Program-made: the position numbers and the translations under genes
Shown: piece by piece, positions 25,159-42,060 of the stretch
How the letters are laid out: the number at the start of each line of letters is the position of its first letter
How positions within the stretch are numbered: position 1 is the first letter of the stretch
Assembly: GCA_903872075.1 (NCBI GenBank)
Contig: CAIQJF010000034.1
Span: forward strand, 62,001 to 126,000
Direction: 5' to 3'
Length of the DNA: 64,000 nucleotides
From: an uncultured Caulobacteraceae bacterium
GTDB taxonomy: Bacteria; Pseudomonadota; Alphaproteobacteria; Caulobacterales; Caulobacteraceae
The notes under the pieces: model-generated
Seen by the model: the letters and a program-made list of their open reading frames with translations, nothing else
Database searches by the model: none
Told to the model about the DNA's origin: nothing

Positions 25159-26523
25159 TCAATGAGACATATAGGTCCGCAGCACGTCCTCGATAATGCG
25201 TTCCAGTTGGCTCAAGGTGTTGCAGGTCTTCGCCACGGTGCAGAAGCGGCTGTAGGCGTCCATCTTCGAGTCGCCCTGGCCCCAGTAGGTCTCTGGCTCG
25301 GGGTTCAGCCAGATCACCGATCGGGCCCGTTCGCTGATGGCCCGCATCAGATCGAGACGTGGGTCCGCGAAATTCGAACGGCCATCGCCCAGGATGATCA
25401 CCGTGGTCCGGCGGTCGAGCTTCGCGCCCTGAGCGTCCATGAAGTCGGCGAGCGAACGACCATAGTCCGTCGGCCTAAATCCAACACGCGCCAGAACCAA
25501 GGTGATCGCCTCATCGACCTTCTCCGCGTCCAGGACGTCGTTGACGCTCACCAGTCGGTCGGAGAAAGCGAAGGCATCCAGGCGTTCGACGACTTCGTTG
25601 AGGCTATAGAGGAACAGCAGCAGGAACTGAGCCGCGGCCGCCACGGAGCGGGAGACATCGCACATGACCGCGATCTTCGGCTTGTGCAGGGTCTCGGTCT
25701 TCCACACGATGTCGAAGGGGATGCCGCCATGGCCCATGCTGCGTCGGATCGTCTTGCGAACGTCAAGCTTGCCCTCGTGCGCCTTGTGCCGTTTGCGGGC
25801 GTATCGCGTGGCCAGTCGCTTGGCCATGCGCCGGACCAGGGACTCCATGGCCTTGAAGTCCTCGGGCTCGACGGCGGTCAGGCGCTGCTGGGCGAGGATG
25901 GCGTCGCGCATGCGACGGCCGGTCTCACTGGCGTAGAGCTGGGACTGGCGCTCCATGAAGGCCGCGCCCTGAGCGAACAGGGCTGTCCGCCGCTCGCTCA
26001 GGGCCTCGGCAAGAGCCCCGTCACGCGGCCCGCCAGCGGCCCGCAAGGCCTGAATCATGGATTCGAGGTCGCGCAGGCCCATCTCGTCCAGCATGCGGCG
26101 GGTGAGCAGATTACGCTGGGTCGTGAGGCGGATATCGCCAGCCCCCACCCGGGCGGCGGCGGCCTCCATGGCCTCGGTGAGCGCCGCCTGATCGCCCGCG
26201 AGAAGTTGTTCCGCCAGGCGCGGTGCGCCGTCCGGAGCCTCGAGCCGGTCTTCTGGCGGCGGCGGGGGTTTGCCTGCCGTGGCCGGTCTGGCGAAGAAGG
26301 TGTCGAAGCAGACGTCGAAGCGGTCGACCTCCTCGGCGCTCTTGGCCAGGGTCACGCACAAGGCGTCCTTCAGCAGTTCACGATTGGAGAATCCGACCTC
26401 GGCCGCGGCGCGGTGGGCGTCGATGGCCTCGGCGGGCGACACACGCACGTCATTGGCGCGGAGCGCGCGCAGGAAATCGCCCAGGGCGCGCTGCATCGGC
26501 TCCATGGGCGCCGCCTGGGTCAC
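25159..26523 (-). CDS. VWA domain protein (CoxE-like)
   Basis: KIAVMCDVSRSVAAAAQFLLLFLYSLNEVVERLDAFAFSDRLV MIDAS-like; paired with MoxR ATPase. Confidence 0.88.
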   Translation of the reverse strand: MTQAAPMEPMQRALGDFLRALRANDVRVSPAEAIDAHRAAAEVGFSNRELLKDALCVTLAKSAEEVDRFDVCFDTFFARPATAGKPPPPPEDRLEAPDGAPRLAEQLLAGDQAALTEAMEAAAARVGAGDIRLTTQRNLLTRRMLDEMGLRDLESMIQALRAAGGPRDGALAEALSERRTALFAQGAAFMERQSQLYASETGRRMRDAILAQQRLTAVEPEDFKAMESLVRRMAKRLATRYARKRHKAHEGKLDVRKTIRRSMGHGGIPFDIVWKTETLHKPKIAVMCDVSRSVAAAAQFLLLFLYSLNEVVERLDAFAFSDRLVSVNDVLDAEKVDEAITLVLARVGFRPTDYGRSLADFMDAQGAKLDRRTTVIILGDGRSNFADPRLDLMRAISERARSVIWLNPEPETYWGQGDSKMDAYSRFCTVAKTCNTLSQLERIIEDVLRTYMSH

Positions 26524-27497
26524 GCGCCGTGACTGAGCAGTTCGCCGATCCTGGGCTCCACGGCGACAATGTCAGCCTCGAACTTGAGGAGCACATTGAG
26601 CGTCTCGCGCACCAGATCGCCGTCCAGGGCGGAGGCGTGCAAAAGGATCAGCGCCCGCGCCCAATCGACGGTTTCGGAGATCGACGGCAGCTTTCGCAGG
26701 TCCAGCGTTCGCAGCGCCTGAACGAAGCGGACCAACTCGGACCTGAGACTTGCCTCGATTCCAGGGACCCGCGAGGCGACGATCCGCTCCTCCAGGCTCT
26801 GGTCGGGCAGGGGAATGTGAAGGTGAAGGCATCGGCGTTTCAGGGCGTCGCCCAGGTCGCGGACGTTGTTGGAGGTCAGAAAGACCACCGGCGGGGTGGT
26901 GGCCTTGATCACTCCGATTTCCGGGATCGAGACCTGGAAGGCCGACAGCATCTCCAGCAGGAAGGCCTCGAACGCTTCATCGCTCTTGTCGATCTCGTCG
27001 ATCAGCAGCACCGCGCCGCCGGGTTCGCGCAGGGCGTTGAGCAGGGGGCGGGGTTCAAGGAACGGCTCCGAGAAGAACAGATCGCCTGTTCCGTGCAGGC
27101 GCTCCATGGCGGTGTCCATGTCGGGCGCGCCGGTCAGCTGGGCGCCCATGTGGTCCTTCAGAATCTGCGTGTAGAGCAGTTGCTTGCCATACTTCCACTC
27201 GTAGAGCGCCTTGGACTCGTCCAGGCCCTCGTAGCATTGCAGGCGGATCAGCGGCAGGCCGAGCAGGGCCGCCGCGCAGAGGGCCAGTTCCGTCTTGCCG
27301 ACGCCCGCCACGCCCTCGACCAACACTGGTTTCTGCAGGTGCGTGGCCATGAACAGGGCGGTGGCGATGCGCCGCGAGGCGATATAGCCGACCCCGGCCA
27401 GGCCGGCGATGATCGCGTCCACGGAGGCAAGAGCGGGATGGCTGGCGGCAGGGCTTGCAGCGGGCAGGGTCAAGGGGCGGTGCGCCTTCAGCGACAA
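26520..27497 (-). CDS. MoxR-family AAA+ ATPase
   Basis: Walker A GVAGVGKTELA, Walker B AVLLIDEIDKSD; 4-bp overlap with VWA gene. Confidence 0.92.
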   Translation of the reverse strand: MSLKAHRPLTLPAASPAASHPALASVDAIIAGLAGVGYIASRRIATALFMATHLQKPVLVEGVAGVGKTELALCAAALLGLPLIRLQCYEGLDESKALYEWKYGKQLLYTQILKDHMGAQLTGAPDMDTAMERLHGTGDLFFSEPFLEPRPLLNALREPGGAVLLIDEIDKSDEAFEAFLLEMLSAFQVSIPEIGVIKATTPPVVFLTSNNVRDLGDALKRRCLHLHIPLPDQSLEERIVASRVPGIEASLRSELVRFVQALRTLDLRKLPSISETVDWARALILLHASALDGDLVRETLNVLLKFEADIVAVEPRIGELLSHGA

Positions 27498-27517: not shown

Positions 27518-28729
27518 TTACATCGCCAGGGTGGATTCGGGGGTTTCGCCGCCGAACGCGCCGGCGATATCCGTCTTGGCGCCGTCCTCGCCCGGCAGGG
27601 GGGCGATCTGTTTGCCGTAGATCCGGTAGGTCTTGTAGATGCGCGCGCTCAGGCCCTCAAGGATATGCCGCATGGGCCGGTTGTCCTCGAGGATCCAGGA
27701 ATACTCCGCCGACTTCAGGCCCATGGGCACGGATTCCGATCGGATGGCGTCGATGAGGAAGAACGGCGCGAGAAGCCCGCGGCGGTCGCGCTGGAATGCC
27801 TTTCGCACACCCATCAGGGGCACCCGCGCGCTGCGGATCGGCTGCATCTTCAGACGCCACAGCATCTTGGCCCAGCCGAACGGAAACAGCTTGCCCTTCA
27901 GGTCGCGGATCGCTTCGTTGAGGTTGGGCAGGAGAACGATGAACGCCGCCGCCTGACCGTCGATTTCCGCGAACCAGATCCAGTCGGGTTTGAGGATCAG
28001 CTTCAGAGAGTTGGCCAGGTGCTTGGTTTCGGCCTGGGTCACCGGCGCCGCGCCCCAGTTCTCCGACCAGGCGTCGTTCATGATCTCGACCATGGTTTCG
28101 ACTTCCCGGTCGAACGCCTTCATCCGCACCTTCCGCAGCACGAACCCGGGCGGGAGCGGGCGGTTCAGCTTGGTCTCGATGCGGCTGTTGAAGGCGAATT
28201 CCTCGGAGATGTAGGCGTAGACGTCCTTGATCTTCTCATAGCCCTGGGCCTCGACCTGCCGGCCGGTGAACGCTGGATCGTGGCCCATCATGAGCATGGG
28301 GGGACTGTCGAAACCGTCCACCAGAAGGCCGACCTCTTCGTTGATCGAAAGATTGAAGGGACCCTGGGCGTAGATGCGTCCGCGTGCGCGCAACCAGTCC
28401 TCGGCGGTCTTGAACAGAGCGGTGAAGACTTCGGCGTCGTCTTCGGCGGCGATCATGCCGAAATAGCCGGCCGGGGCGGCGGGGTCGGTCCTGGCCAGAT
28501 GGTCGATCTGGGCGCTGATCCGGCCTACGTCGCGGCCGTTCTTGCGCGCCAGCCAGAACTGAGCCTCGGCGTGCTGGAAGAACGGGTTGATCTTCTTCGA
28601 AAGGGCTTCCTTGCGCTCGAACATCAGCGGCGCGACGTACGTCGGGTCCTTGGCCAGGAGTCGCATCGGCACACGGATGAAACGCTCGAGTTGCGCGTTG
28701 GTCTCGACGGGGATGATCTCAACAGCCAC
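27518..28729 (-). CDS. bcerS: GNAT-like N-acyltransferase, candidate bacterial ceramide synthase
   Basis: MAVEIIPVETNAQLERFIRVPMRLLAKDPTYVAPLMFERKEALSKKINPFF; operon context with spt and ACP; symbol assigned by context. Confidence 0.75.
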   Translation of the reverse strand: MAVEIIPVETNAQLERFIRVPMRLLAKDPTYVAPLMFERKEALSKKINPFFQHAEAQFWLARKNGRDVGRISAQIDHLARTDPAAPAGYFGMIAAEDDAEVFTALFKTAEDWLRARGRIYAQGPFNLSINEEVGLLVDGFDSPPMLMMGHDPAFTGRQVEAQGYEKIKDVYAYISEEFAFNSRIETKLNRPLPPGFVLRKVRMKAFDREVETMVEIMNDAWSENWGAAPVTQAETKHLANSLKLILKPDWIWFAEIDGQAAAFIVLLPNLNEAIRDLKGKLFPFGWAKMLWRLKMQPIRSARVPLMGVRKAFQRDRRGLLAPFFLIDAIRSESVPMGLKSAEYSWILEDNRPMRHILEGLSARIYKTYRIYGKQIAPLPGEDGAKTDIAGAFGGETPESTLAM

Positions 28730-28731
28730 GG

Positions 28732-31026
28732 CTATCCTTCCGCATAAAGCAGCACGCTGATCGCTCCCGCCGCGAAGGCGACCGGCGCCCCCCAGGCGGC
28801 CATCAAGGGCGGCAGGATACCCGTCGAGCCCATGGCGGTCAGCAAGCCATCAGTGACGAGATAGAGCAGGCCACATCCGAGACCGAACACGATCGGCCCG
28901 GTGCGATTGCTCCGGGAATGACCGAGCGCCGTGGGCAGGGCGAGCAGCAGCATGATGATCGGCGCCAGCCCCTCGGCGATGGTGCGGAACAGGCGTGTCT
29001 TGAACTGGCTTGGACTGCGGTCGACGGCCCCCTTGCCGAACAGCGATTTCAGGGCCGTGCCCGAGGTGATCTCATAGGCTGCCGCGAAAACACGCGCGGT
29101 GTCTGACGGCCGTAGGCTGGTGCGCCAATCGCTCTCGGCGACGGTCATCATGGTGGCCCGCGACGCCCCCAGGTCGGTGATCTGGGCATCGTGGAGGCGC
29201 CACGCGCCGTGGGACCAGGTGGCGCCCGACGCCTGGACCCTGCGGACAAGCGCCTTCTTGGCGTCCCGCTCATAGATCGAGACGGCCTTGAGTTCCTCGC
29301 CATCCGGGCTCGCAGACCGGGCCATGACCACATTGCCGTCGATTCGGAACCAGCGTGGCGCACCCGGGGTCTTGGCGGCGCCAGGCGCCGTGGCGTTCCA
29401 CCATGTGGCCAGCGCCTGCTGCGCGCGCGGCGTCACCTGGTCGGTGACGGCGAGGTCGATCACAGCGACGGCAAGCGCCACCGGCAGCGTGCGTTGAAAG
29501 ATCTGAAACAGCGACAGCCCCGAGATGCGCATCACCACCAGTTCGCTGTTCCTCGACAGTTGGCTGAAGGTGAAGATCGCGCCGCCCAGCACCGCGAACG
29601 GCGCCACCTCATGGAAGAGCCACGGCATTCGCAGGATCATGTAACGGCCGATGTCCAGCACCCCGCCCCTGGCGAGGATGCCGCTTGTGCGCTCAAGCAG
29701 GTCGATGAGTTGCAGAAGGCCGATCAGGGCGAGCGCGGCGGCCAGGGTACGCACCGCCATGATCCGGGTCAGATAGGTCGAGAGGCTGATGATACCCTTG
29801 GCCTTCATCGCGGTGGGCGCGACCTTGGTGCGCCGCTCAAAGAGCGTTTCCAGCCGCAGGAAGAAGCGCGAGATGGGTGTCTCGCCGGGCCGCCGGCGGC
29901 TCGAGAGGAAGAGCCAGAAGGCTGTCGCGGCCAGCAGGCTGAACAGCCCGCCCATGGCCGCCAGCGGATCGAGCAGTCCCTGCGCGGCGAAGCCCTTCGC
30001 CAGGGTGATGCCGTGGTGGAACGTCACCAGAATGACCGCGCCGACGATCATGCCGGGTGCTCGCCGTCCCCGTTTGGCGGCCAGCGCCAGGGGCAGCGCC
30101 AGGAGTGGCAGCAGCGGCACGGCCAGGGATCGGGTGAGGCGCGCGTAGAGTTCGGCTTGCAGCATCCGTCTGGGGATGAGCGCGTCCGGCCGTTGGGCCT
30201 CACTGAGCAGTTCGGGAAGGGTGAGTTCCTGCTCGTCGCCGCCTCGCGGGCGCAGGGTCTCGTTGCCCGCGATGGTCTCGTGGTCGCTGAAATCGCCGAA
30301 TCTCAGCAGCCGCGCCGACCCTGGCCCGGCGTCGGCCAGGATCATGCCGCCGTCGAGGCGAAGATCGGTCGTCTTCTGATCCCGTTGCAGGCTCAACAGC
30401 CCGTCCGTGGCGGTGACGACCGTTTCGCCGGTGAGGGTCTTCCGGCGAATGAACACGCCCTTGAGCGTGCGGCCCGTGGCGTCGGCTTCGTCAGCGGAAA
30501 TGGTGAAGTCGGGGCCGGCGTTGATGAACACCTGCGGGTCCAGCCGGGCGGTCCAGCCGGCGTCGGTGGCGGCGTTCAAGAGGGCCCGGTAGCCGAACCG
30601 GCTGTAGGGCTGAAGATAGCCGACGAGCAGCAGGCTGATCACGCCCAAGACCATGCCGGCGAAGACCAAGGGCGCGACAATCCGTTCAAACGACACCCCG
30701 CCTGACAGGATGGCGTCGATTTCGCTTTCCTCATCCAGCCGGGCGATGACGATGAACATCGAGACGAAGAAGGCGGCCGGCATGGCCAGTCCCAGTTCGT
30801 AGGGAATGAGGTTCGTCACAAGCCCGAACAGATAGCCAAGCCGAGCGCCGTTGGAGGCCAGCTGGTCGATCAGGTGCAGGGTCTGGTCAAGCAGGAACGC
30901 CACGAGGGTGACGCCCAGCACAGCTCCGGCGGGGGCCGCGAGCATGCGCAGCATATAGCCGTCGAGGATCGACGGCCGCCAAAAGGATTTGTACGCGCCC
31001 GGCGCGCCGAGCGCCATGGATGTCAC
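28732..31026 (-). CDS. LptF-LptG permease fusion protein (764 aa)
   Basis: Two successive YjgP/YjgQ-like halves: ILDGYMLRMLAAPAGAVLGVTLVAFLLDQTLHLIDQL...ARLDEESEIDAILSGGVSFERI and ISLSTYLTRIMAVRTLAAALALIGLLQLIDLLERT...SRNSELVVMRISGLSLFQI. Confidence 0.9.
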   Translation of the reverse strand: MTSMALGAPGAYKSFWRPSILDGYMLRMLAAPAGAVLGVTLVAFLLDQTLHLIDQLASNGARLGYLFGLVTNLIPYELGLAMPAAFFVSMFIVIARLDEESEIDAILSGGVSFERIVAPLVFAGMVLGVISLLLVGYLQPYSRFGYRALLNAATDAGWTARLDPQVFINAGPDFTISADEADATGRTLKGVFIRRKTLTGETVVTATDGLLSLQRDQKTTDLRLDGGMILADAGPGSARLLRFGDFSDHETIAGNETLRPRGGDEQELTLPELLSEAQRPDALIPRRMLQAELYARLTRSLAVPLLPLLALPLALAAKRGRRAPGMIVGAVILVTFHHGITLAKGFAAQGLLDPLAAMGGLFSLLAATAFWLFLSSRRRPGETPISRFFLRLETLFERRTKVAPTAMKAKGIISLSTYLTRIMAVRTLAAALALIGLLQLIDLLERTSGILARGGVLDIGRYMILRMPWLFHEVAPFAVLGGAIFTFSQLSRNSELVVMRISGLSLFQIFQRTLPVALAVAVIDLAVTDQVTPRAQQALATWWNATAPGAAKTPGAPRWFRIDGNVVMARSASPDGEELKAVSIYERDAKKALVRRVQASGATWSHGAWRLHDAQITDLGASRATMMTVAESDWRTSLRPSDTARVFAAAYEITSGTALKSLFGKGAVDRSPSQFKTRLFRTIAEGLAPIIMLLLALPTALGHSRSNRTGPIVFGLGCGLLYLVTDGLLTAMGSTGILPPLMAAWGAPVAFAAGAISVLLYAEG

Positions 31027-31029
31027 CGT

Positions 31030-32253
31030 CTAGACGGCTCCGGCCGCGCGACGGCGATCGGACGACAGGAAGCCGAGCTTGCGCCCGACGTCCGCGAAGA
31101 TTTCCAGGGCCCGGTCGATCTGTTGAACGGAGTGCGCCGCCGAAACGCTCAGGCGCAGAAGCGAGGCGTTGGTGGGGGTCGCCGGCGGAATGGCCAGATT
31201 GATGTACAGGCCCGACTCCAGCAGCATCTTCCAGAACACTGCCGCCATTTCCTGGTTGGGCATGGTCACCGCGACAATCGGATTGGCTTCCGGGCCGGTC
31301 TGGAAGCCCATGGCGCCAAGACCGTCGTAGAGTCGGGTCGCATTGCGCATCAGGTCGTGCCGCAGTCTCGGTTCGGCCCGAAGTGTCCGCAGCGCCTGGA
31401 TCGTCGAGGCGATGACGCCCGGCGGCAGGGAGGCGGTGAACATGTACGGTCGGCAGACGATCTTCAGCAGATCGAAGTCCGGGTTGTCGGAGACGCAGAA
31501 ACCGCCGACGCTGCCGAGGCTCTTGGAGAAGGTGCCGACGATGAAATCGACATCCTCCTCCACCCCTGCCTGTTCGGCGAGGCCCCGGCCGGTCTCGCCG
31601 AGCACGCCCAGCGAATGGGCCTCGTCGACGAGCAGATAGGCTCCGGTTTCGCGCTTCACGTGCGCGAACTCCTTGAGCGGCGCGGTGTCGCCGAGCATCG
31701 AATAGATGCCTTCCACGACGATCAGACGGTCGCCGGGCATGCCTTCGAGGCGGCGAAGGCGCTTGTAGAGATCGTCGGGATTGTTGTGGCGGAAGCGAAT
31801 CACCTCGGCCATGCCCAGGCGTGAGCCGTCGTAGATGCTGGCGTGACTGTCGGCGTCGAGCATCAGATGATCGCCGCGGCCGACGAGGCTCGAGAGCACG
31901 CCGAGATTGGCCTGATAGCCTGTGCTGAACACCATCGCCTGTTTGCGGCCATAGAAGTCGGCGATTTCCGCTTCCAGCTGCGCGTGGCCGCCGTAGGTTC
32001 CGTTGGCCACGCGCGACCCGGTGGTCCCCGTGCCCTGGCTACGCGTCGCCTCAACCGCCTTCTCGATGCAGTCGTGATCGAAGGTCAGGCCCAGATAGTT
32101 GTTGGTGCCGAGCAGAATCGTCGTCTGACCGTTCAGGACGCCCTCGGTGGGCGACAGCACCGCGTCGAACTTCACATTGAGCGGATCGACGCCATGAGCC
32201 AGCAGGGCGTCATAGGCGTGCCGATAGGCGGCGTGCTTGGCGAGAATGGTCAT
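31030..32253 (-). CDS. spt: Serine palmitoyltransferase (alpha-oxoamine synthase)
   Basis: GTNNYLGLTFDHDCIEKAVEATRSQGTGTTGSRVANGTYGGHAQLE; LLVDEAHSLGVLGETGRG; GTFSKSLGSVGGF (PLP Lys). Confidence 0.9.
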   Translation of the reverse strand: MTILAKHAAYRHAYDALLAHGVDPLNVKFDAVLSPTEGVLNGQTTILLGTNNYLGLTFDHDCIEKAVEATRSQGTGTTGSRVANGTYGGHAQLEAEIADFYGRKQAMVFSTGYQANLGVLSSLVGRGDHLMLDADSHASIYDGSRLGMAEVIRFRHNNPDDLYKRLRRLEGMPGDRLIVVEGIYSMLGDTAPLKEFAHVKRETGAYLLVDEAHSLGVLGETGRGLAEQAGVEEDVDFIVGTFSKSLGSVGGFCVSDNPDFDLLKIVCRPYMFTASLPPGVIASTIQALRTLRAEPRLRHDLMRNATRLYDGLGAMGFQTGPEANPIVAVTMPNQEMAAVFWKMLLESGLYINLAIPPATPTNASLLRLSVSAAHSVQQIDRALEIFADVGRKLGFLSSDRRRAAGAV

Positions 32254-32546
32254 ACGGCTTTTCCGCTCTTCAGGTCTTCAACCGCGCGCATCAGGTCGGC
32301 CACGGTCTGTATCTGAGCGACCCGATCCAGAGGGATGGAGAGGTCATAGAAGTCTTCGATACCCATGACGAAATTCATCACACCCAGGGAGTCCATGCCA
32401 AGATCCTCAACGATGTTGGTATCGTCGCTGAGCGACACCGGCCGCCCGAGGACCTGCTCGAAAATCGCGGCAATCTCGTCCCGCATCGCGGACGACGCGC
32501 CGCCGCCGTTCGTCTCAACCAGCGCCAATTGGTGGTTTTGTCGCAT
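32250..32546 (-). CDS. Acyl carrier protein, pathway-dedicated
   Basis: NIVEDLGMDSLGVMNFVMGIEDFYDLSIP; phosphopantetheine Ser in DSLG; overlaps spt by 4 bp. Confidence 0.9.
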   Translation of the reverse strand: MRQNHQLALVETNGGGASSAMRDEIAAIFEQVLGRPVSLSDDTNIVEDLGMDSLGVMNFVMGIEDFYDLSIPLDRVAQIQTVADLMRAVEDLKSGKAV

Positions 32547-32745
32547 TCGGCCTTTTCGCCTCAAGGCTACGGAGTCGAATACGAACTCCCAGGTTAGGGT
32601 AACAGGTTTGAGACCCCGGCTTCAACCGCGCCCTAAAACCGCACCCCCGGCGGCAGGCTCATAGCGGAGGCGGGCGGACTTGTCCTCACGCGGAATGGTT
32701 TTTTTGCGTGAAAACGCCCCCCGCCGGGAAATGAGGCGCCCCGCC

Positions 32746-33681
32746 TCAGAGCCATCCGGCCTCCCGGTACCAGGCCACGGTCCGTGCGAAACCGGTAGCG
32801 AGGTCCACGCAGCCGTCGGCGCCTTCCGGCGGCAATTCCGCCGGGCTCACCGACCAGTCGGAATGCCGAAGCTCGCGCGCCTTGCCCCGATTGAAGATGG
32901 CTGGCGACCGCCGCAGTTGGGCGGCTGTCTCCGAAACCGCCGCCGCCGCGGAAATGATCCAGAGCGGGAGGGGGACGAGGCGGGGCGATCGGCCCATGGC
33001 CGTGGCGGCCGTGGCGAAGATCTCCCGCCAGCCGTAGCCCTCAGGCCGCGCGCCGCCGATCGCAAACGTCTCCGGCCGCCACTCGCCGTTCAGCCGGCCG
33101 ATCAACTGGGTGACCACATCGTCGACATGCGCGAGCGCCAGACGCGCGGCGGGGTCGTCCGGCGCAGGTAGAAACGGCGCGGCGGCGGCCAGTTTGAACA
33201 GACCCAGAGTCTCCCGGTCGCCCGGTCCGTAGATCGCGGGCGGCCGCACAACCGTCAGCCGTTCGCCCAGGATGTCGCGCGCGACGGTTTCTCCGGCCCG
33301 CTTGCTGGCGGCATAGTTGGATAGCTCGGGTGACCGCGCCGCGAGACTTGAGACCATCAGCATGCGGCCGGGGCCCATGCTCTCGGCCAAGCGTCGCGCG
33401 CCAGCCTGATTCACTGCGAAAAAGGCGGCGCGGTCCAAGGCCTTGATGGCCCCGGCGACATGGACCACGACATCGCAGCCTTCGGTGAGAGCAGCCAGGG
33501 CGGCCGTATCGTCGAGGTCGCCGCGGACGATCTCAGGCGCGGCGCCGTCGAAGCTCGCGGCCGCCGGGTCCCGCGCCAGGATCCGCACGCGCCAGCCGCG
33601 CGCGGTAAGGGCCGGAACGAGCCGTCGGCCCAGAAAGCCGGTGGCGCCGGTGACCGCTGCGAGGCGCGGGGCGCCCGCCAC
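32746..33681 (-). CDS. cerR: NAD(P)-dependent epimerase/reductase, candidate ceramide reductase
   Basis: LAAVTGATGFLGRRLVPALTARGWRVRILARD; YAASKRAGE; GTG start at 33681 just downstream of ligase stop; symbol by context. Confidence 0.8.
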   Translation of the reverse strand: MAGAPRLAAVTGATGFLGRRLVPALTARGWRVRILARDPAAASFDGAAPEIVRGDLDDTAALAALTEGCDVVVHVAGAIKALDRAAFFAVNQAGARRLAESMGPGRMLMVSSLAARSPELSNYAASKRAGETVARDILGERLTVVRPPAIYGPGDRETLGLFKLAAAAPFLPAPDDPAARLALAHVDDVVTQLIGRLNGEWRPETFAIGGARPEGYGWREIFATAATAMGRSPRLVPLPLWIISAAAAVSETAAQLRRSPAIFNRGKARELRHSDWSVSPAELPPEGADGCVDLATGFARTVAWYREAGWL

Positions 33682-33689
33682 AGGCCCGC

Positions 33690-35420
33690 CTAGACCGTCA
33701 GAGGCGCGGCGGCCGGCTTGAAAGCCCCGGAGACATAGAGCGCCTTGGCCTTCGAACGACTGAGCTTGCCCGACGATGTCTGGGGCAGGCTGTGCGGCGG
33801 GGTGGGAGCCACCTTCACCTCCAGGCCATGCCGGGCCCGGAGCAGGTTGCTGACCTCGGCGGCGAGGGCGGCGCGGGCGTCGACGTCCGAGGTCCGGCAT
33901 TGCACCAGGGCCACGACCTTCTCCTCACCTGCGTCGTCGTTCACCGAAAATACCGCCACATCGCCTGCCCGCAGCCCGGCAACTTCCTGCTCGGCCGTCC
34001 ACTCCAGGTCCTGCGGCCACACGTTGCGGCCGTTGACGATGATCAGGTCCTTGGCCCGGCCGGTGATCACGATCTGACCGTCGAGGGTGTAGCCGAGGTC
34101 GCCCGTGTCCAGCCACCCGTCGGGCGACAGCGCCTTGGCGGTCTCGTCCGGTTCGCCGAAGTAGTTCTTCATCAGGCTCGGGCCCGACGCGAAGATCCGG
34201 CCGACACGGCGGTCGCCCAGCACCCCGCCCTCCGGATTACGAACCTCGAGCCTGTGGCCTTTGAGGACTTCGCCGCACAGCGCGAACTCCCGAGTCCGGG
34301 CTTCGGGCCGTGTCGGCGCCGCGGCGCGTCCGAGCCGCTCGAGGTCGTCCACATCGACGATGTCGGTGCGAAGGCCCTGCCCGACCGGCGTGAGGGTCAA
34401 GGCGAGGGTGGCCTCAGCCATGCCGTAGCTGGCGGTGTAGGCGGCCGGGTCGAAGCCGGCGGATTCGTACGCCGCGGCAAAAGCGCGCAGAGGTTCGGCG
34501 CGAATCATATCGCCGCCCAGGCCCGCCACGCGCCAGGTCGAGAGGTCGAGATCTGCCAGCGAGGCCGCGCCGGCGCGGCGGGCGGCCAGATCATAGCCGA
34601 AGGTGGGCGCATAGGTGATGCTGCCGCCGCGCTTGGAAATCAGGTCGAGCCACAGGCCAGGACGCCGCACGAAGGCGCCGGTGGGCAGCAGGTCGATGGA
34701 ACACTGGAAACCGAGGCTGGTGAGCAGCATCCCGACCAGACCCATGTCGTGGTAGAGCGGTAGCCAGGTCACGGTCCGGTCCGCGGCGCAGACGCCCAGG
34801 CCATGTTCGCCGATTGCGACGATATTGGCCATCAGCGCCGACTGGGTCACTGCTACGCCCATGGGGAAGCGGGTGCTGCCGGAGGAAAACTGCAGATAGC
34901 AGAGCCCTTCCGGGTCGCGATCTGGCAGGATGTCGATAAGGTCCTCCGGCACGTCGGCCACGCTGCCGCTGAACAGCAGGTCCAGACCTTCCGCCGCTTC
35001 GGCGAACCAGCCGGCCAGGGCGGTCGGCGCGAAAGCCGCGCGGGCCTGGGAGGAGAGGATCATCCGCCGGACGTGGGCGATATAGGTGTCCTTGCCGCCG
35101 AACGGCGCGGGCAGGGGCACGGGGGCGGGGACAAGGCCGGCAAACTGGCAGGCAAAGAAAACGCGCAGGAAATCGCCGTCGCTCTCGGCGGCGATCGCCA
35201 CACGGTCGCCCGGCTGCAGGCCCAGACCGAGCAGCCGGCCGGCCAGGTCGCGCGCCGGAGGCGCGAGGACGGCGTAGGGCAGCACTTCGACCAGTTCGCC
35301 GCGGAGGGAGTGTATGTTGACGCCCGTGGCCTGGGTCGCCGCGAAGGCCAGCGCGTCGGCGATGGTCGGGAAATCCCCTTTCCGGACAATCCGGTCGGGG
35401 GCGGTGGGGGTTGGGGTCAA
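33690..35420 (-). CDS. Fatty acyl-AMP ligase / acyl-ACP synthetase
   Basis: LCYLQFSSGSTRFPMGVAVTQSAL, YHDMGLVGMLLTSL, DGWLDTGDLGYTLDGQIVITGRAKDLIIVNGRNVWPQDLEW (FadD32/FAAL-like). Confidence 0.9.
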   Translation of the reverse strand: MTPTPTAPDRIVRKGDFPTIADALAFAATQATGVNIHSLRGELVEVLPYAVLAPPARDLAGRLLGLGLQPGDRVAIAAESDGDFLRVFFACQFAGLVPAPVPLPAPFGGKDTYIAHVRRMILSSQARAAFAPTALAGWFAEAAEGLDLLFSGSVADVPEDLIDILPDRDPEGLCYLQFSSGSTRFPMGVAVTQSALMANIVAIGEHGLGVCAADRTVTWLPLYHDMGLVGMLLTSLGFQCSIDLLPTGAFVRRPGLWLDLISKRGGSITYAPTFGYDLAARRAGAASLADLDLSTWRVAGLGGDMIRAEPLRAFAAAYESAGFDPAAYTASYGMAEATLALTLTPVGQGLRTDIVDVDDLERLGRAAAPTRPEARTREFALCGEVLKGHRLEVRNPEGGVLGDRRVGRIFASGPSLMKNYFGEPDETAKALSPDGWLDTGDLGYTLDGQIVITGRAKDLIIVNGRNVWPQDLEWTAEQEVAGLRAGDVAVFSVNDDAGEEKVVALVQCRTSDVDARAALAAEVSNLLRARHGLEVKVAPTPPHSLPQTSSGKLSRSKAKALYVSGAFKPAAAPLTV

Positions 35421-35641: not shown

Positions 35642-37495
35642 ATGAACGAAGCGGGCTCCAGCGACACGTCGAGGGCCGGCCGGCCCGGTCTGGGCGCCCT
35701 CATGAAGGACCAACTCCTGCACGAGGCCTGGAGCCGCGACAAGGGCCGGGCCCTCTCGCCGCTCCTGCGCCTGATGCCGTTCGTCCGTGCCCACCCGATC
35801 GACGCCGTCCTCGGCCTGGCGTTTATGCTGATCTCCTCCGGCGCCATCCTGGGGCTGAGCGCCGCGGCGCGCTGGGTGATCGACGGCGGCTTTGCCGTGC
35901 GCGACGCTCATGCCCTGCTGCGCGTCTTCCTGATGGCCGCCAGCGTGGCCGTGATCCTGGCCACGGCGACGGGCCTTCGCCTCTACTTCCTGTTCAAACT
36001 TGGCGAACGCGTGGTCGCCGACATGCGCAAGATGGTTTTCCGGCACGTGCTCGGTCTCGATCTGACCCACTTTCTGAAGCTGCGCACCGGCGAGGTGCTT
36101 TCGCGCCTGACCACCGACATGTCGATCGTCGAGGCCATCGTCGCCAATGTGCTTCCGGTGGCCCTGCGCAATTCGGTCACGCTGATCGGGGCCTTGGTCT
36201 GGATGGCGGTGGTCAGTCCGAGCCTGACCTTCCTGGTGCTGCTGATGATTCCCGTGATCCTGACGCCAATGCTGGTGATGAGCCGGCGGCTCCAGTCGCT
36301 CTCGGCCCGGGCCCAGGATCGTTTCGCCGACGCCGTGGGCTACGCCGGCGAGGGCCTGGGGGCGATCGATACGGTCCAGGCCTTCGGTCAGGAGGACATG
36401 GTCGCCGGGCGCTTCAACGGCGCCATCGAGAGCGCCTTCGAGGCGTCGCGCGCCCAGATCCGCGCCCGAGGCCTGCTCTCCTTCCTGATGATCGCCCTGA
36501 TCTTCGGCGGCATGCTGGCCCTTCTCTATCGGTCGGCCCTGGCCGTGATCGTCGAGCACACCCTGACCCCCGGTTCGCTCTTCCAGCTTCTTGGCCTCGC
36601 CTTCCTGGCCGCCAACGCGGTGAAGGACCTCTCAGAGGTCTGGGGCCAGATTCAGAAAGCCTCCGGCGCGGCCGAGCGCATCGTCGCCATGATGGACACC
36701 ACCCCGGCCATCCGCGCGCCGGAGAAGGTCGAACCCATGCCGCTCCCGGCCCGCGGCGAGGTCAGTTTCGAGAATGTGGTGTTTGGCTATCCCGGCCGGC
36801 CGGGGCCGCCCGCCCTCAACGGTTTCTCGCTCAAGGCTCGGCCTGGTGAGCGTGTGGCCCTGGTGGGTCCCTCCGGCGCCGGCAAGAGCACCGTGCTGCG
36901 CCTGCTGTTGAGATTCTACGACCCCGATGTCGGTGTCGTCCGCATCGACGGTGTGGACCTGACCCATGCCGATCCGGCCGAGGTCCGTGCGCGAATGGCT
37001 CTGGTGGCCCAGGAGGCGCCGCTGTTCTCCGGGTCCGCCGCCGACAATATCCGTTTCGGCCGGCCCGGCGCCACAGAAATGGATGTTCAGGCCGCGGCCC
37101 TTGCCGCCCAGGCCGAAGGCTTCCTCACGGCTCTTCCGCAGGGTTTCGACACCACGGTAGGCGAGCACGCCAAGACGCTGTCGGGCGGCCAGCGCCAGCG
37201 CCTGGCCATCGCCCGCGCCCTGATCCGCCGCTCGCCGATCCTGTTGCTCGACGAGGCGACGAGCGCCCTGGACGCCGAAAACGAGCGTCTGGTTCAGCAG
37301 GCCCTGCACGAGGCCATGCATGGCCGAACGACGCTGGTCATCGCTCACCGTCTGGCCACGGTGCTCGAGGCCGACCGTATCGTGGTGATGGAGGCCGGGC
37401 GCGTTGTGGAGGAGGGCAAGCACGCCGACCTTCTGGCCCGCGGCGGCCTCTACGCCCGGCTTGCCAAGTTGCAGTTCACCGCCCAGGCCGCCTGA
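35642..37495 (+). CDS. ABC transporter, fused permease/ATPase (MsbA/lipid exporter-like)
   Basis: Walker A GPSGAGKST, signature LSGGQRQRLAIARAL, Walker B ILLLDEATSALD. Confidence 0.95.
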   Translation: MNEAGSSDTSRAGRPGLGALMKDQLLHEAWSRDKGRALSPLLRLMPFVRAHPIDAVLGLAFMLISSGAILGLSAAARWVIDGGFAVRDAHALLRVFLMAASVAVILATATGLRLYFLFKLGERVVADMRKMVFRHVLGLDLTHFLKLRTGEVLSRLTTDMSIVEAIVANVLPVALRNSVTLIGALVWMAVVSPSLTFLVLLMIPVILTPMLVMSRRLQSLSARAQDRFADAVGYAGEGLGAIDTVQAFGQEDMVAGRFNGAIESAFEASRAQIRARGLLSFLMIALIFGGMLALLYRSALAVIVEHTLTPGSLFQLLGLAFLAANAVKDLSEVWGQIQKASGAAERIVAMMDTTPAIRAPEKVEPMPLPARGEVSFENVVFGYPGRPGPPALNGFSLKARPGERVALVGPSGAGKSTVLRLLLRFYDPDVGVVRIDGVDLTHADPAEVRARMALVAQEAPLFSGSAADNIRFGRPGATEMDVQAAALAAQAEGFLTALPQGFDTTVGEHAKTLSGGQRQRLAIARALIRRSPILLLDEATSALDAENERLVQQALHEAMHGRTTLVIAHRLATVLEADRIVVMEAGRVVEEGKHADLLARGGLYARLAKLQFTAQAA

Positions 37496-39485: not shown

Positions 39486-40352
39486 TCAGGCGGCCCGGCT
39501 CAGCACCTGGGCCTCGACATCGGCCTCGTTGAGGAACCGGGTGATCAGTGGGATGGTCGCGCCGGGGTGCGAGACCAGGAACAGGTGCCCGCCGGGCACT
39601 GTCTCCAGCCTGGCGTTGGGCAGCAGGCTCTTGAGGATCTTGCCATTGACCAGGGGGACGATGCGGTCGTCCTCGCCCATGACGATCAGGGTCTTCTGCT
39701 TCACGAAGGGCAGGAACGGGGCGCTGGTCCAGCCGACCACGGCGGCCAGCTGATAGGCGTAGCCGGCCCGCGACGGGGGCTTCAGGCGCGAGACGTGATC
39801 GTCCTTGCCCATGCCCGCGCCATAGAGGGTCTCGAAGTGCTCCATCATATATTCGGTGTCGATGTAGCGACGCGGATTGGCCATCTTCGACAGCACCTTT
39901 GGATCGCCAGGCACCATCAGGATTCCGGCCGCCGTGGCCGCAAGCACCAGCTTGCCCACCCGCGGCGCGTGCTGGAAGGCGAACTGCTGGGCCATGCCCC
40001 CGCCCCAGGAGACACCCATCACGTCCACCTTGCCGTCATAGCCCAAGAGGTCGAGCAGATGGGCCGCGCGCAGGGCCATGGACCACGGGCGGTAGGGGAA
40101 GGTGGGGCTGGGCGAGCCGCCGATGCCCGGCATGTCGAAGGTGATGATGTCCCGGTCGGGGATCCACTCCGCCAGGGGGGCCATCAGCTCTATATTGGCC
40201 CCGATGCCGTTGAAGAACAGCACCGGCCGGCCGGCAACGCGGCCCGGCGGCGGCGCGGCCTTCCACACCGCCACCCGCAATTCGCGCCCGCCCACCTTGA
40301 TCTGGCTGAACGTCGGCGCCCGGGCGGCGGTCTCATTGGCGGGGTCGGTCAC
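39486..40352 (-). CDS. phaZ: Intracellular PHA depolymerase (alpha/beta hydrolase)
   Basis: PVLFFNGIGANIELMAPLAEWIPDRDIITFDMPGIGGSPSPTFPYRPWSMALRAAHLLD; GVSWGGGMAQQFAFQ. Confidence 0.9.
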   Translation of the reverse strand: MTDPANETAARAPTFSQIKVGGRELRVAVWKAAPPPGRVAGRPVLFFNGIGANIELMAPLAEWIPDRDIITFDMPGIGGSPSPTFPYRPWSMALRAAHLLDLLGYDGKVDVMGVSWGGGMAQQFAFQHAPRVGKLVLAATAAGILMVPGDPKVLSKMANPRRYIDTEYMMEHFETLYGAGMGKDDHVSRLKPPSRAGYAYQLAAVVGWTSAPFLPFVKQKTLIVMGEDDRIVPLVNGKILKSLLPNARLETVPGGHLFLVSHPGATIPLITRFLNEADVEAQVLSRAA

Positions 40353-40371: not shown

Positions 40372-42060
40372 TCAGTCGAAGACATAGATACCCGGCGCGG
40401 GATCGCCAGGGGGGTGGGCCTTGGAGCCCAGGGTCTTGCGGGCCGCCTTCAGGGCGCCGGAGCGGGCCTGCAGCCACTCAAGCCAATAGGGCCACCAGGA
40501 GCCGGCGTGCTCGCGGGCATCCTGGCCGAGCCAGGCGTCGATATCCGCCGGCGGTCGTTTGTCGCTGCGGAAATACTTGGCCTTGGGATTGCCCGGCGGG
40601 TTCAGCAGCGACTGGATATGGCCGGCCTGGCTCAGGACGAACTCCACATTGGGCGAGCCGACCAGCTGACTGATCCGGTAGCAGGCCTTCCAGGGCGTGA
40701 TGTGGTCGGTGACCCCGGCAACGATGAACACATCCTGTGTGACCTTGGTCAGGTCGACCACGTGTCCCGCCACGGTGGCCGTGCCCGGCCGGGCGAAAGG
40801 TTGAGTCTGGTAGAAATCCAGGTAGTCGGCGTGCAGGGCGGCGGTCAGGTTGGTGGAATCGTTGTTCCAGTAGAGCACGTCGAAGGCCGGCGGCGGCTCG
40901 CCGTGCAGGTAGTTGTTGACCACATAGTTCCACACCAGATCGTTGGGCCGCAGCCAGGCGAAGGTCCGCGACAGCGAGGCGCCGTCGAGAATGCCCTTCT
41001 TGGCGCTGCGCTGCTTGGCCAGTTCGATGCCGTGTTCGGAGACCAGGGCGCCGGTCTCGCTGTCGGTGGCCTGGGGATCGAGCACGCAGACCATGAGTGT
41101 GACGCTGCCGACCCGTTCGTCGCCCCGGCTGGCCAGTTTGGAGAGCAGCGTCGCCGCGGTGATCCCGCCCGAGCAGGCGCCGGAGATGTTCACCCTCTTC
41201 GACTTGGTGACCTCGCAGATCACGTCGATGGCCGCGATCAGCTCATCCACATAGTCGCCCAGGCCCCAGGCGCGGTGTTCCGGCCCCGGATTTCGCCAGC
41301 TGACCATGAACGGCTGGATGCCGCCGCCGGTCAGGAAGCGCACAATGCTCTTCTCCGGCGACAGGTCGTTCACATAGGCCTTGTTGATCTGCGGCGGGAC
41401 GATCAGGAACGGGACGGCATGGACCTTCTCGGTCGCCGGCGCGTACTGGATCAGCTCCATCATCTCTGTCTTGTGGATCACCGCCCCGGGGGCGGTGGCG
41501 AGGTTACCGCCCACCTTGAAGGGCCGCTTGTCCACCTGGCTGACGATGCCGTCGTTCTGGGTGATGTCCTCATAGGCGTTTTTCAGCCCGCGGACCAAGG
41601 AGCCGCCGCCCGTCTCGAGGGCCTTCTTGATCGCCGAGGGATTGCCGATCAGGGCGTTGGTCGGCGCCACGGCGTCGAGGATCATGGCCGTGACGAAACT
41701 GGCCTGGGCCCGCTCGCGGGTGTCCAGATCCACGTCCTCGACCCACTCTTCCACGCCTTTTCGCGCGGCGAGATAGTACTGCATCGAGGCCTTGTAGAGC
41801 GGGTTGGTCTTCCAGGTCGGATCGGTGAAGCGCCGGTCCTTCGGATCGGGCGCGATGTCCGAACGGCCGGTGACGATTTTGCCCACCTCGCCGCTGAACT
41901 TCTTCATGTGTTTGAGCGTCTTGACCGGCCGACCGGCGGTCTCCCGCAGCATCATGGTTACCGCGCCGAACAGATCCTCCCGGGCAAGGCCCAGCAGGGG
42001 GTTCATGGCGGAGGTGGCCTCGGCCGGTCCGCCCTCGATTTCAATCCCGGACTTGGGCAT
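40372..42060 (-). CDS. phaC: Poly(3-hydroxyalkanoate) synthase, class II-like
   Basis: Lipase-like box NISGACSGGITAATLLS; NPLLGLAREDLFGAV N-terminus; next to PhaZ, TetR and phasin. Confidence 0.92.
   Translation of the reverse strand: MPKSGIEIEGGPAEATSAMNPLLGLAREDLFGAVTMMLRETAGRPVKTLKHMKKFSGEVGKIVTGRSDIAPDPKDRRFTDPTWKTNPLYKASMQYYLAARKGVEEWVEDVDLDTRERAQASFVTAMILDAVAPTNALIGNPSAIKKALETGGGSLVRGLKNAYEDITQNDGIVSQVDKRPFKVGGNLATAPGAVIHKTEMMELIQYAPATEKVHAVPFLIVPPQINKAYVNDLSPEKSIVRFLTGGGIQPFMVSWRNPGPEHRAWGLGDYVDELIAAIDVICEVTKSKRVNISGACSGGITAATLLSKLASRGDERVGSVTLMVCVLDPQATDSETGALVSEHGIELAKQRSAKKGILDGASLSRTFAWLRPNDLVWNYVVNNYLHGEPPPAFDVLYWNNDSTNLTAALHADYLDFYQTQPFARPGTATVAGHVVDLTKVTQDVFIVAGVTDHITPWKACYRISQLVGSPNVEFVLSQAGHIQSLLNPPGNPKAKYFRSDKRPPADIDAWLGQDAREHAGSWWPYWLEWLQARSGALKAARKTLGSKAHPPGDPAPGIYVFD

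Follow-up and report, generated by a model that had tools for sequence, protein, structure and literature searches.

The window, by which we mean the whole stretch of 64,000 nucleotides analysed here from an uncultured Caulobacteraceae bacterium, carries on one strand the genes aasR, cerR, acpR, spt, lptFG2 and cerS, in this order (Table 1). The locus holds all five genes defined for ceramide synthesis in Caulobacter crescentus, which are aasR, cerR, acpR, spt and cerS (PMC11324152). The stop codon of spt and the start codon of lptFG2 are 3 nt apart, and the gap between lptFG2 and cerS is 2 nt; the ORF called for cerR is too long at its 5' end. The scores of the ABC exporter that adjoins aasR lie below the cut-offs of both TIGR02204 (735.8 bits; cut-off 780.4) and TIGR02203 (461 bits; cut-off 602), and the exporter gene is found beside aasR in all nine further loci of the genus that are of sufficient length. 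Downstream of cerS, on the minus strand, lies a pair of genes for a MoxR-type AAA ATPase (26520-27497) and a CoxE-type VWA protein (25159-26523) that is kept in most loci of the genus. Near the ceramide operon there are also genes for a PHA synthase (PhaC; 40372-42060, minus strand) and an alpha/beta hydrolase (39486-40352, minus strand).

Table 1. Features of the lptFG2 locus, with positions counted from the first nucleotide of the window.
Feature	Position	Strand	Remarks
cerS, bacterial ceramide synthase	27518..28729	-	~56% identity to cerS of the Caulobacter-type cluster of g31; no Pfam family
lptFG2, single-chain LptF2-LptG2 fusion permease	28732..31026	-	764 aa
C-terminal LptG2-type half, residues 415-760	28747..29784	-	coupling-helix Glu495
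Linker, residues 376-414	29785..29901	-	net positive charge; pLDDT < 50 at 400-412
N-terminal LptF2-type half, residues 20-375	29902..30969	-	6 TM helices and periplasmic beta domain; coupling-helix Glu102
spt, serine palmitoyltransferase	31030..32253	-	NF047599, 671 bits (cut-off 500)
acpR, acyl carrier protein	32250..32564	-	PF00550
cerR, NAD-dependent reductase of the ceramide pathway	32746..33900	-	PF01370; match to cerR of the g31 cluster
aasR, fatty acyl-AMP ligase / acyl-ACP synthetase	33690..35420	-	NF006624, 799 bits (cut-off 600)
MsbA-related ABC exporter, candidate flippase	35642..37495	+	divergent, adjoining aasR

LptF and LptG are normally two separate proteins. The preliminary description had claimed that one unbroken ORF here contains two complete YjgP/YjgQ-type units, and this is borne out by Pfam, by NCBIfam and by the relatives. 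The ORF starts with GTG, has an in-frame ATG three codons further in and contains no internal stop. Pfam finds two LptF_LptG domains (PF03739, E=3e-124), and NCBIfam assigns residues 20-374 to LptF (255.5 bits, cut-off 230) and residues 415-760 to LptG (281.9 bits, cut-off 240); the LptF-type domain thus comes first and the LptG-type domain second, both full-length and above the equivalog cut-offs. Each half has six transmembrane (TM) helices with the periplasmic beta domain between TM 3 and TM 4. An AlphaFold model computed from 46 sequences (mean pLDDT 82, pTM 0.71) predicts the LptF/G fold for each half, with a pLDDT below 50 only at residues 1-14, at residues 400-412 in the linker and at residues 704-706, and with this model Foldseek matched solved LptG and LptF chains with target-normalised TM-scores of up to 0.85 and 0.87, respectively. 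Fourteen named Caulobacteraceae/Proteobacteria MAG contigs likewise carry an uninterrupted fused ORF of 761-780 aa (61-87% identity), and lptFG2 is therefore not a frameshift or assembly artefact. In all 14 of these relatives the fusion is flanked directly upstream by spt and directly downstream by cerS. The dN/dS of about 0.1-0.25 in both halves indicates purifying selection.

The same genome contains separate lptF and lptG genes followed by lptD and surA (contig C22), and lptC, lptA and lptB together at another locus (contig C100; LptB: TIGR04406, 360 bits), so that lptFG2 is an extra copy, as expected if it is a paralogue. When 102 domains were placed in a maximum-likelihood tree (LG+C20+F+G4 by PMSF), the LptF and LptG types separated; all N-terminal halves of the fusions fall into an LptF2 clade (support 100/97) and all C-terminal halves into an LptG2 clade (support 98/92). 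Neither clade includes canonical sequences; both also contain unfused permeases from sphingolipid clusters. Within each half of the tree the fusions of the window genus form one group. By phylogeny as well as by position, lptFG2 is thus set apart from the housekeeping LptF/LptG of LPS export.

In an order-wide survey of 299 genomes (threshold for LptF2/G2-type matches E <= 1e-26; presence lists for LptF2/G2 and ceramide synthase taken manually from two match tables) LptF2/G2 was found in 91 genomes and ceramide synthase in 97. Both were present in 88 genomes, LptF2/G2 alone in 3, ceramide synthase alone in 9 and neither in 199 (Fisher p ~6e-61, with shared ancestry ignored). Across the order, LptF2/G2 and ceramide synthase, the ceramide gene surveyed here, nearly always occur together. 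CpgA, the phosphoglycerate head-group protein, whose identity was assigned from its place and family in the cluster of g31, the gene order of which agrees with that published for Caulobacter, was found in 42 of the 91 LptF2/G2 genomes. LptF2/G2 therefore goes with ceramide synthesis and not with the phosphoglycerate head group. A full-length match to CpgA or CpgB was not found in any of the 11 genomes of the genus examined, nor in two genomes of family f3 with fusions of their own (G171 and G286; see below). Lack of CpgA/CpgB was considered as a hallmark of the fusion and rejected, as 49 of the 91 LptF2/G2 genomes have no CpgA and are mostly unfused.

From these findings it appears quite likely that lptFG2 is a fused permease uniting the two transmembrane subunits of an additional Lpt-type ABC extractor that is dedicated to sphingolipids. 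The proposal of the preliminary description that the fusion is a specialised paralogue for a lipid other than LPS is thus supported by paralogy, phylogeny and co-occurrence with ceramide genes. Of the two results that this description had named as fatal to the proposal, a genome devoid of separate lptF/lptG and a tree with both halves inside the housekeeping clades, neither was obtained. The idea as such is not new (PMC11324152), and sphingolipid is the putative cargo. Alternatively, lptFG2 could be another exporter of LPS, either redundant or used under certain conditions, that came to lie in a ceramide operon by chance. Both halves pass the NCBIfam equivalog cut-offs for LptF and LptG, the coupling-helix residues are retained, and the fold is that of LPS-bound LptB2FG. 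We nevertheless consider this unlikely: the halves lie outside the housekeeping clade, LptF2/G2 follows cerS across the order, spt/cerS clusters also house the unfused relatives, and it is the housekeeping LptF/G that adjoins lptD. The LPS-selectivity residue Lys34 of E. coli LptG was tried as a marker of the cargo and discarded, since the lysine is missing from the canonical LptG proteins of these bacteria as well (Asp, Gln, Glu or Ser instead).

As a subunit pair of a sphingolipid extractor, the lptFG2 chain would fold as a built-in LptF:LptG heterodimer, the two coupling helices of which would dock on an LptB dimer. In E. coli the coupling-helix glutamates E84 of LptF and E88 of LptG are needed for the coupling to LptB (PMC5082905). 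Both glutamates are kept in lptFG2, and the conserved Glu and Gly of the coupling-helix consensus (PMC5082905) are present in both halves. The equivalent of LptF E84 is Gln in three fused homologues (L063, L064 and L065), and the "strictly conserved" coupling-helix Glu is Ala in the unfused LptG2 of L035 (11641-12699), L132 (12586-13773) and L134 (9216-10274). Each of the 11 genomes of the genus examined has one LptC gene, as have g7, G664, G171 and G286; g31 genomes have two, and in G146 one of them is located within the sphingolipid cluster. LptC2 does not define the LptF2/LptG2 family, because it is absent also from g7 and G664, which are unfused. A dedicated copy of LptC or LptA was not found in the window genus. 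Given the single LptC, the simplest assumption is that LptC, LptA and LptB probably serve both lptFG2 and the LPS machine. The fusion would fix a 1:1 stoichiometry and block mixed dimers with housekeeping LptF/LptG. A flipping of the lipid before lptFG2 acts may be due to the divergent MsbA-related exporter. The scheme in full, with a sphingolipid-specific single-chain extractor that uses the shared LptB, LptC and LptA, exports a ceramide lipid devoid of the phosphoglycerate head group, is insulated by fusion from mixing with LptF/LptG and evolved at least twice, is possible and is put forward tentatively.

It is also conceivable that lptFG2 is linked to ceramide without any transport to the outer membrane, for example as a membrane anchor for the ceramide enzymes or as a protein that moves lipid between the leaflets of the inner membrane. 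The tight coupling to spt and cerS and the failure to find a dedicated bridge protein in the genus would agree with this. We give it a slightly smaller chance than a second LPS exporter, since each half retains a full periplasmic beta domain as well as the helix for coupling to LptB, and the published clusters contain lptC2 (PMC11324152).

The linker of lptFG2 is the counterpart of the C-terminal tail of LptF2 in the unfused relatives, read on into LptG2. The C-terminus of LptF and the N-terminus of LptG are both cytoplasmic, and the net charge of +7 of residues 374-416 indicates that the linker, too, is probably cytoplasmic. The head-to-tail chain would have arisen when adjacent lptF2 and lptG2 genes lost the intervening stop and start. 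A methionine near the old lptG2 start (Met407) is present in about half of the homologues and may be a relic of the start codon. That translation starts a second time near Met407, the fused frame yielding two proteins and thus an ordinary LptF2/LptG2 pair, is suggested by this methionine and is nevertheless very improbable, since Met407 is absent from L054, L061, L063-L065 and L067, no consistent ribosome-binding motif precedes it (judged by eye) and all species with the gene keep the fused frame.

Among 16 genomes of the genus, 14 have the fused ORF, namely the window genome and 13 of the remaining 15, the two without it being G007 (93% complete; canonical pair only) and G008 (71% complete). 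The fusion is fixed in the genus. One genome (G010) has, apart from the ceramide genes, a second, strongly diverged fused copy (L045, 8408-10978, minus strand; ~37% identity). Single-chain LptF2-LptG2 proteins of 776 and 792 aa are also encoded in G286 and G171, respectively, of family f3 of the same order. They share with lptFG2 the single-chain form and, in G171, the adjoining acpR, spt and cerS, yet have only ~25% identity to it and occupy a distant branch of the tree among unfused pairs, far from the window genus. The fusion therefore arose at least twice. Other candidates were rejected: a fused copy in G023 (genus g9) nests in the clade of the window genus and stems from a MAG that is 6% contaminated and has several Lpt sets; the long open frames in L048, L049 and L046 are interrupted in the DNA by stops between the genes; and those in G579, G596, G516, G621 and G276 are each two ORFs.

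In 2024 the route of bacterial sphingolipids to the outer membrane was given as unknown in a study of Caulobacter, in which the unfused lptC2, lptF2 and lptG2 were named as candidate sphingolipid transporters (PMC11324152). Since this proposal had been published, only the fusion is new and not the paralogue idea. A search of the open-access literature yielded no paper describing an LptF-LptG fusion; as far as could be found, what is new comprises the permease as a single chain, the two origins of this form and its fixation in one genus, together with the lack there of a second LptC and the MsbA-related exporter beside aasR. A fused permease encoded by one gene is a clean target for deletion and biochemistry, with the stoichiometry fixed and no exchange of partners with the LPS permease, and with lptFG2 it could be tested if one periplasmic bridge can serve two Lpt extractors. 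It is also a warning for annotation, as both halves exceed the cut-offs for "LPS export permease" despite a phylogeny and a context linked to sphingolipids.

The closest known counterparts are LptF2 and LptG2 of C. crescentus, which are encoded by separate genes of the phosphosphingolipid cluster (CC_1156 and CC_1155) (PMC11324152). The domain order is alike, the ceramide cluster adjoins via cerS in both, and in the tree the halves of the fusion neighbour LptF2 and LptG2 of genomes with a Caulobacter-type cluster. The Caulobacter cluster differs in having Cpg head-group genes and lptC2, whereas CpgA, CpgB and a second LptC were not found in the window genus. It also contains CC_1166, a potential flippase (PMC11324152). 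In the g31 genome a protein without Pfam match, taken as CC_1166 from its place, is located beside aasR, where the window genus has the MsbA-related exporter. At two loci, L133 (7985-9178, plus strand) and L139 (8479-9852, minus strand), a single-domain LptF2-type permease is encoded with no LptG to partner it, in each case adjoining two GT4 glycosyltransferase-like genes (checked with Pfam in L133 only) and a protein of ~310 aa (no Pfam match in L133), a setting with a putative likeness to that of the Caulobacter glycosphingolipid glycosyltransferases Sgt1/Sgt2. With housekeeping LptF and LptG of the LptB2FGC complex (PDB 6mit, 6mjp, 8frl and 6mhu) lptFG2 has in common the fold, the 6 + 6 TM helices, the beta domains and the coupling-helix Glu; the housekeeping proteins differ from it in being two chains, in having LPS as cargo and in forming a separate clade.
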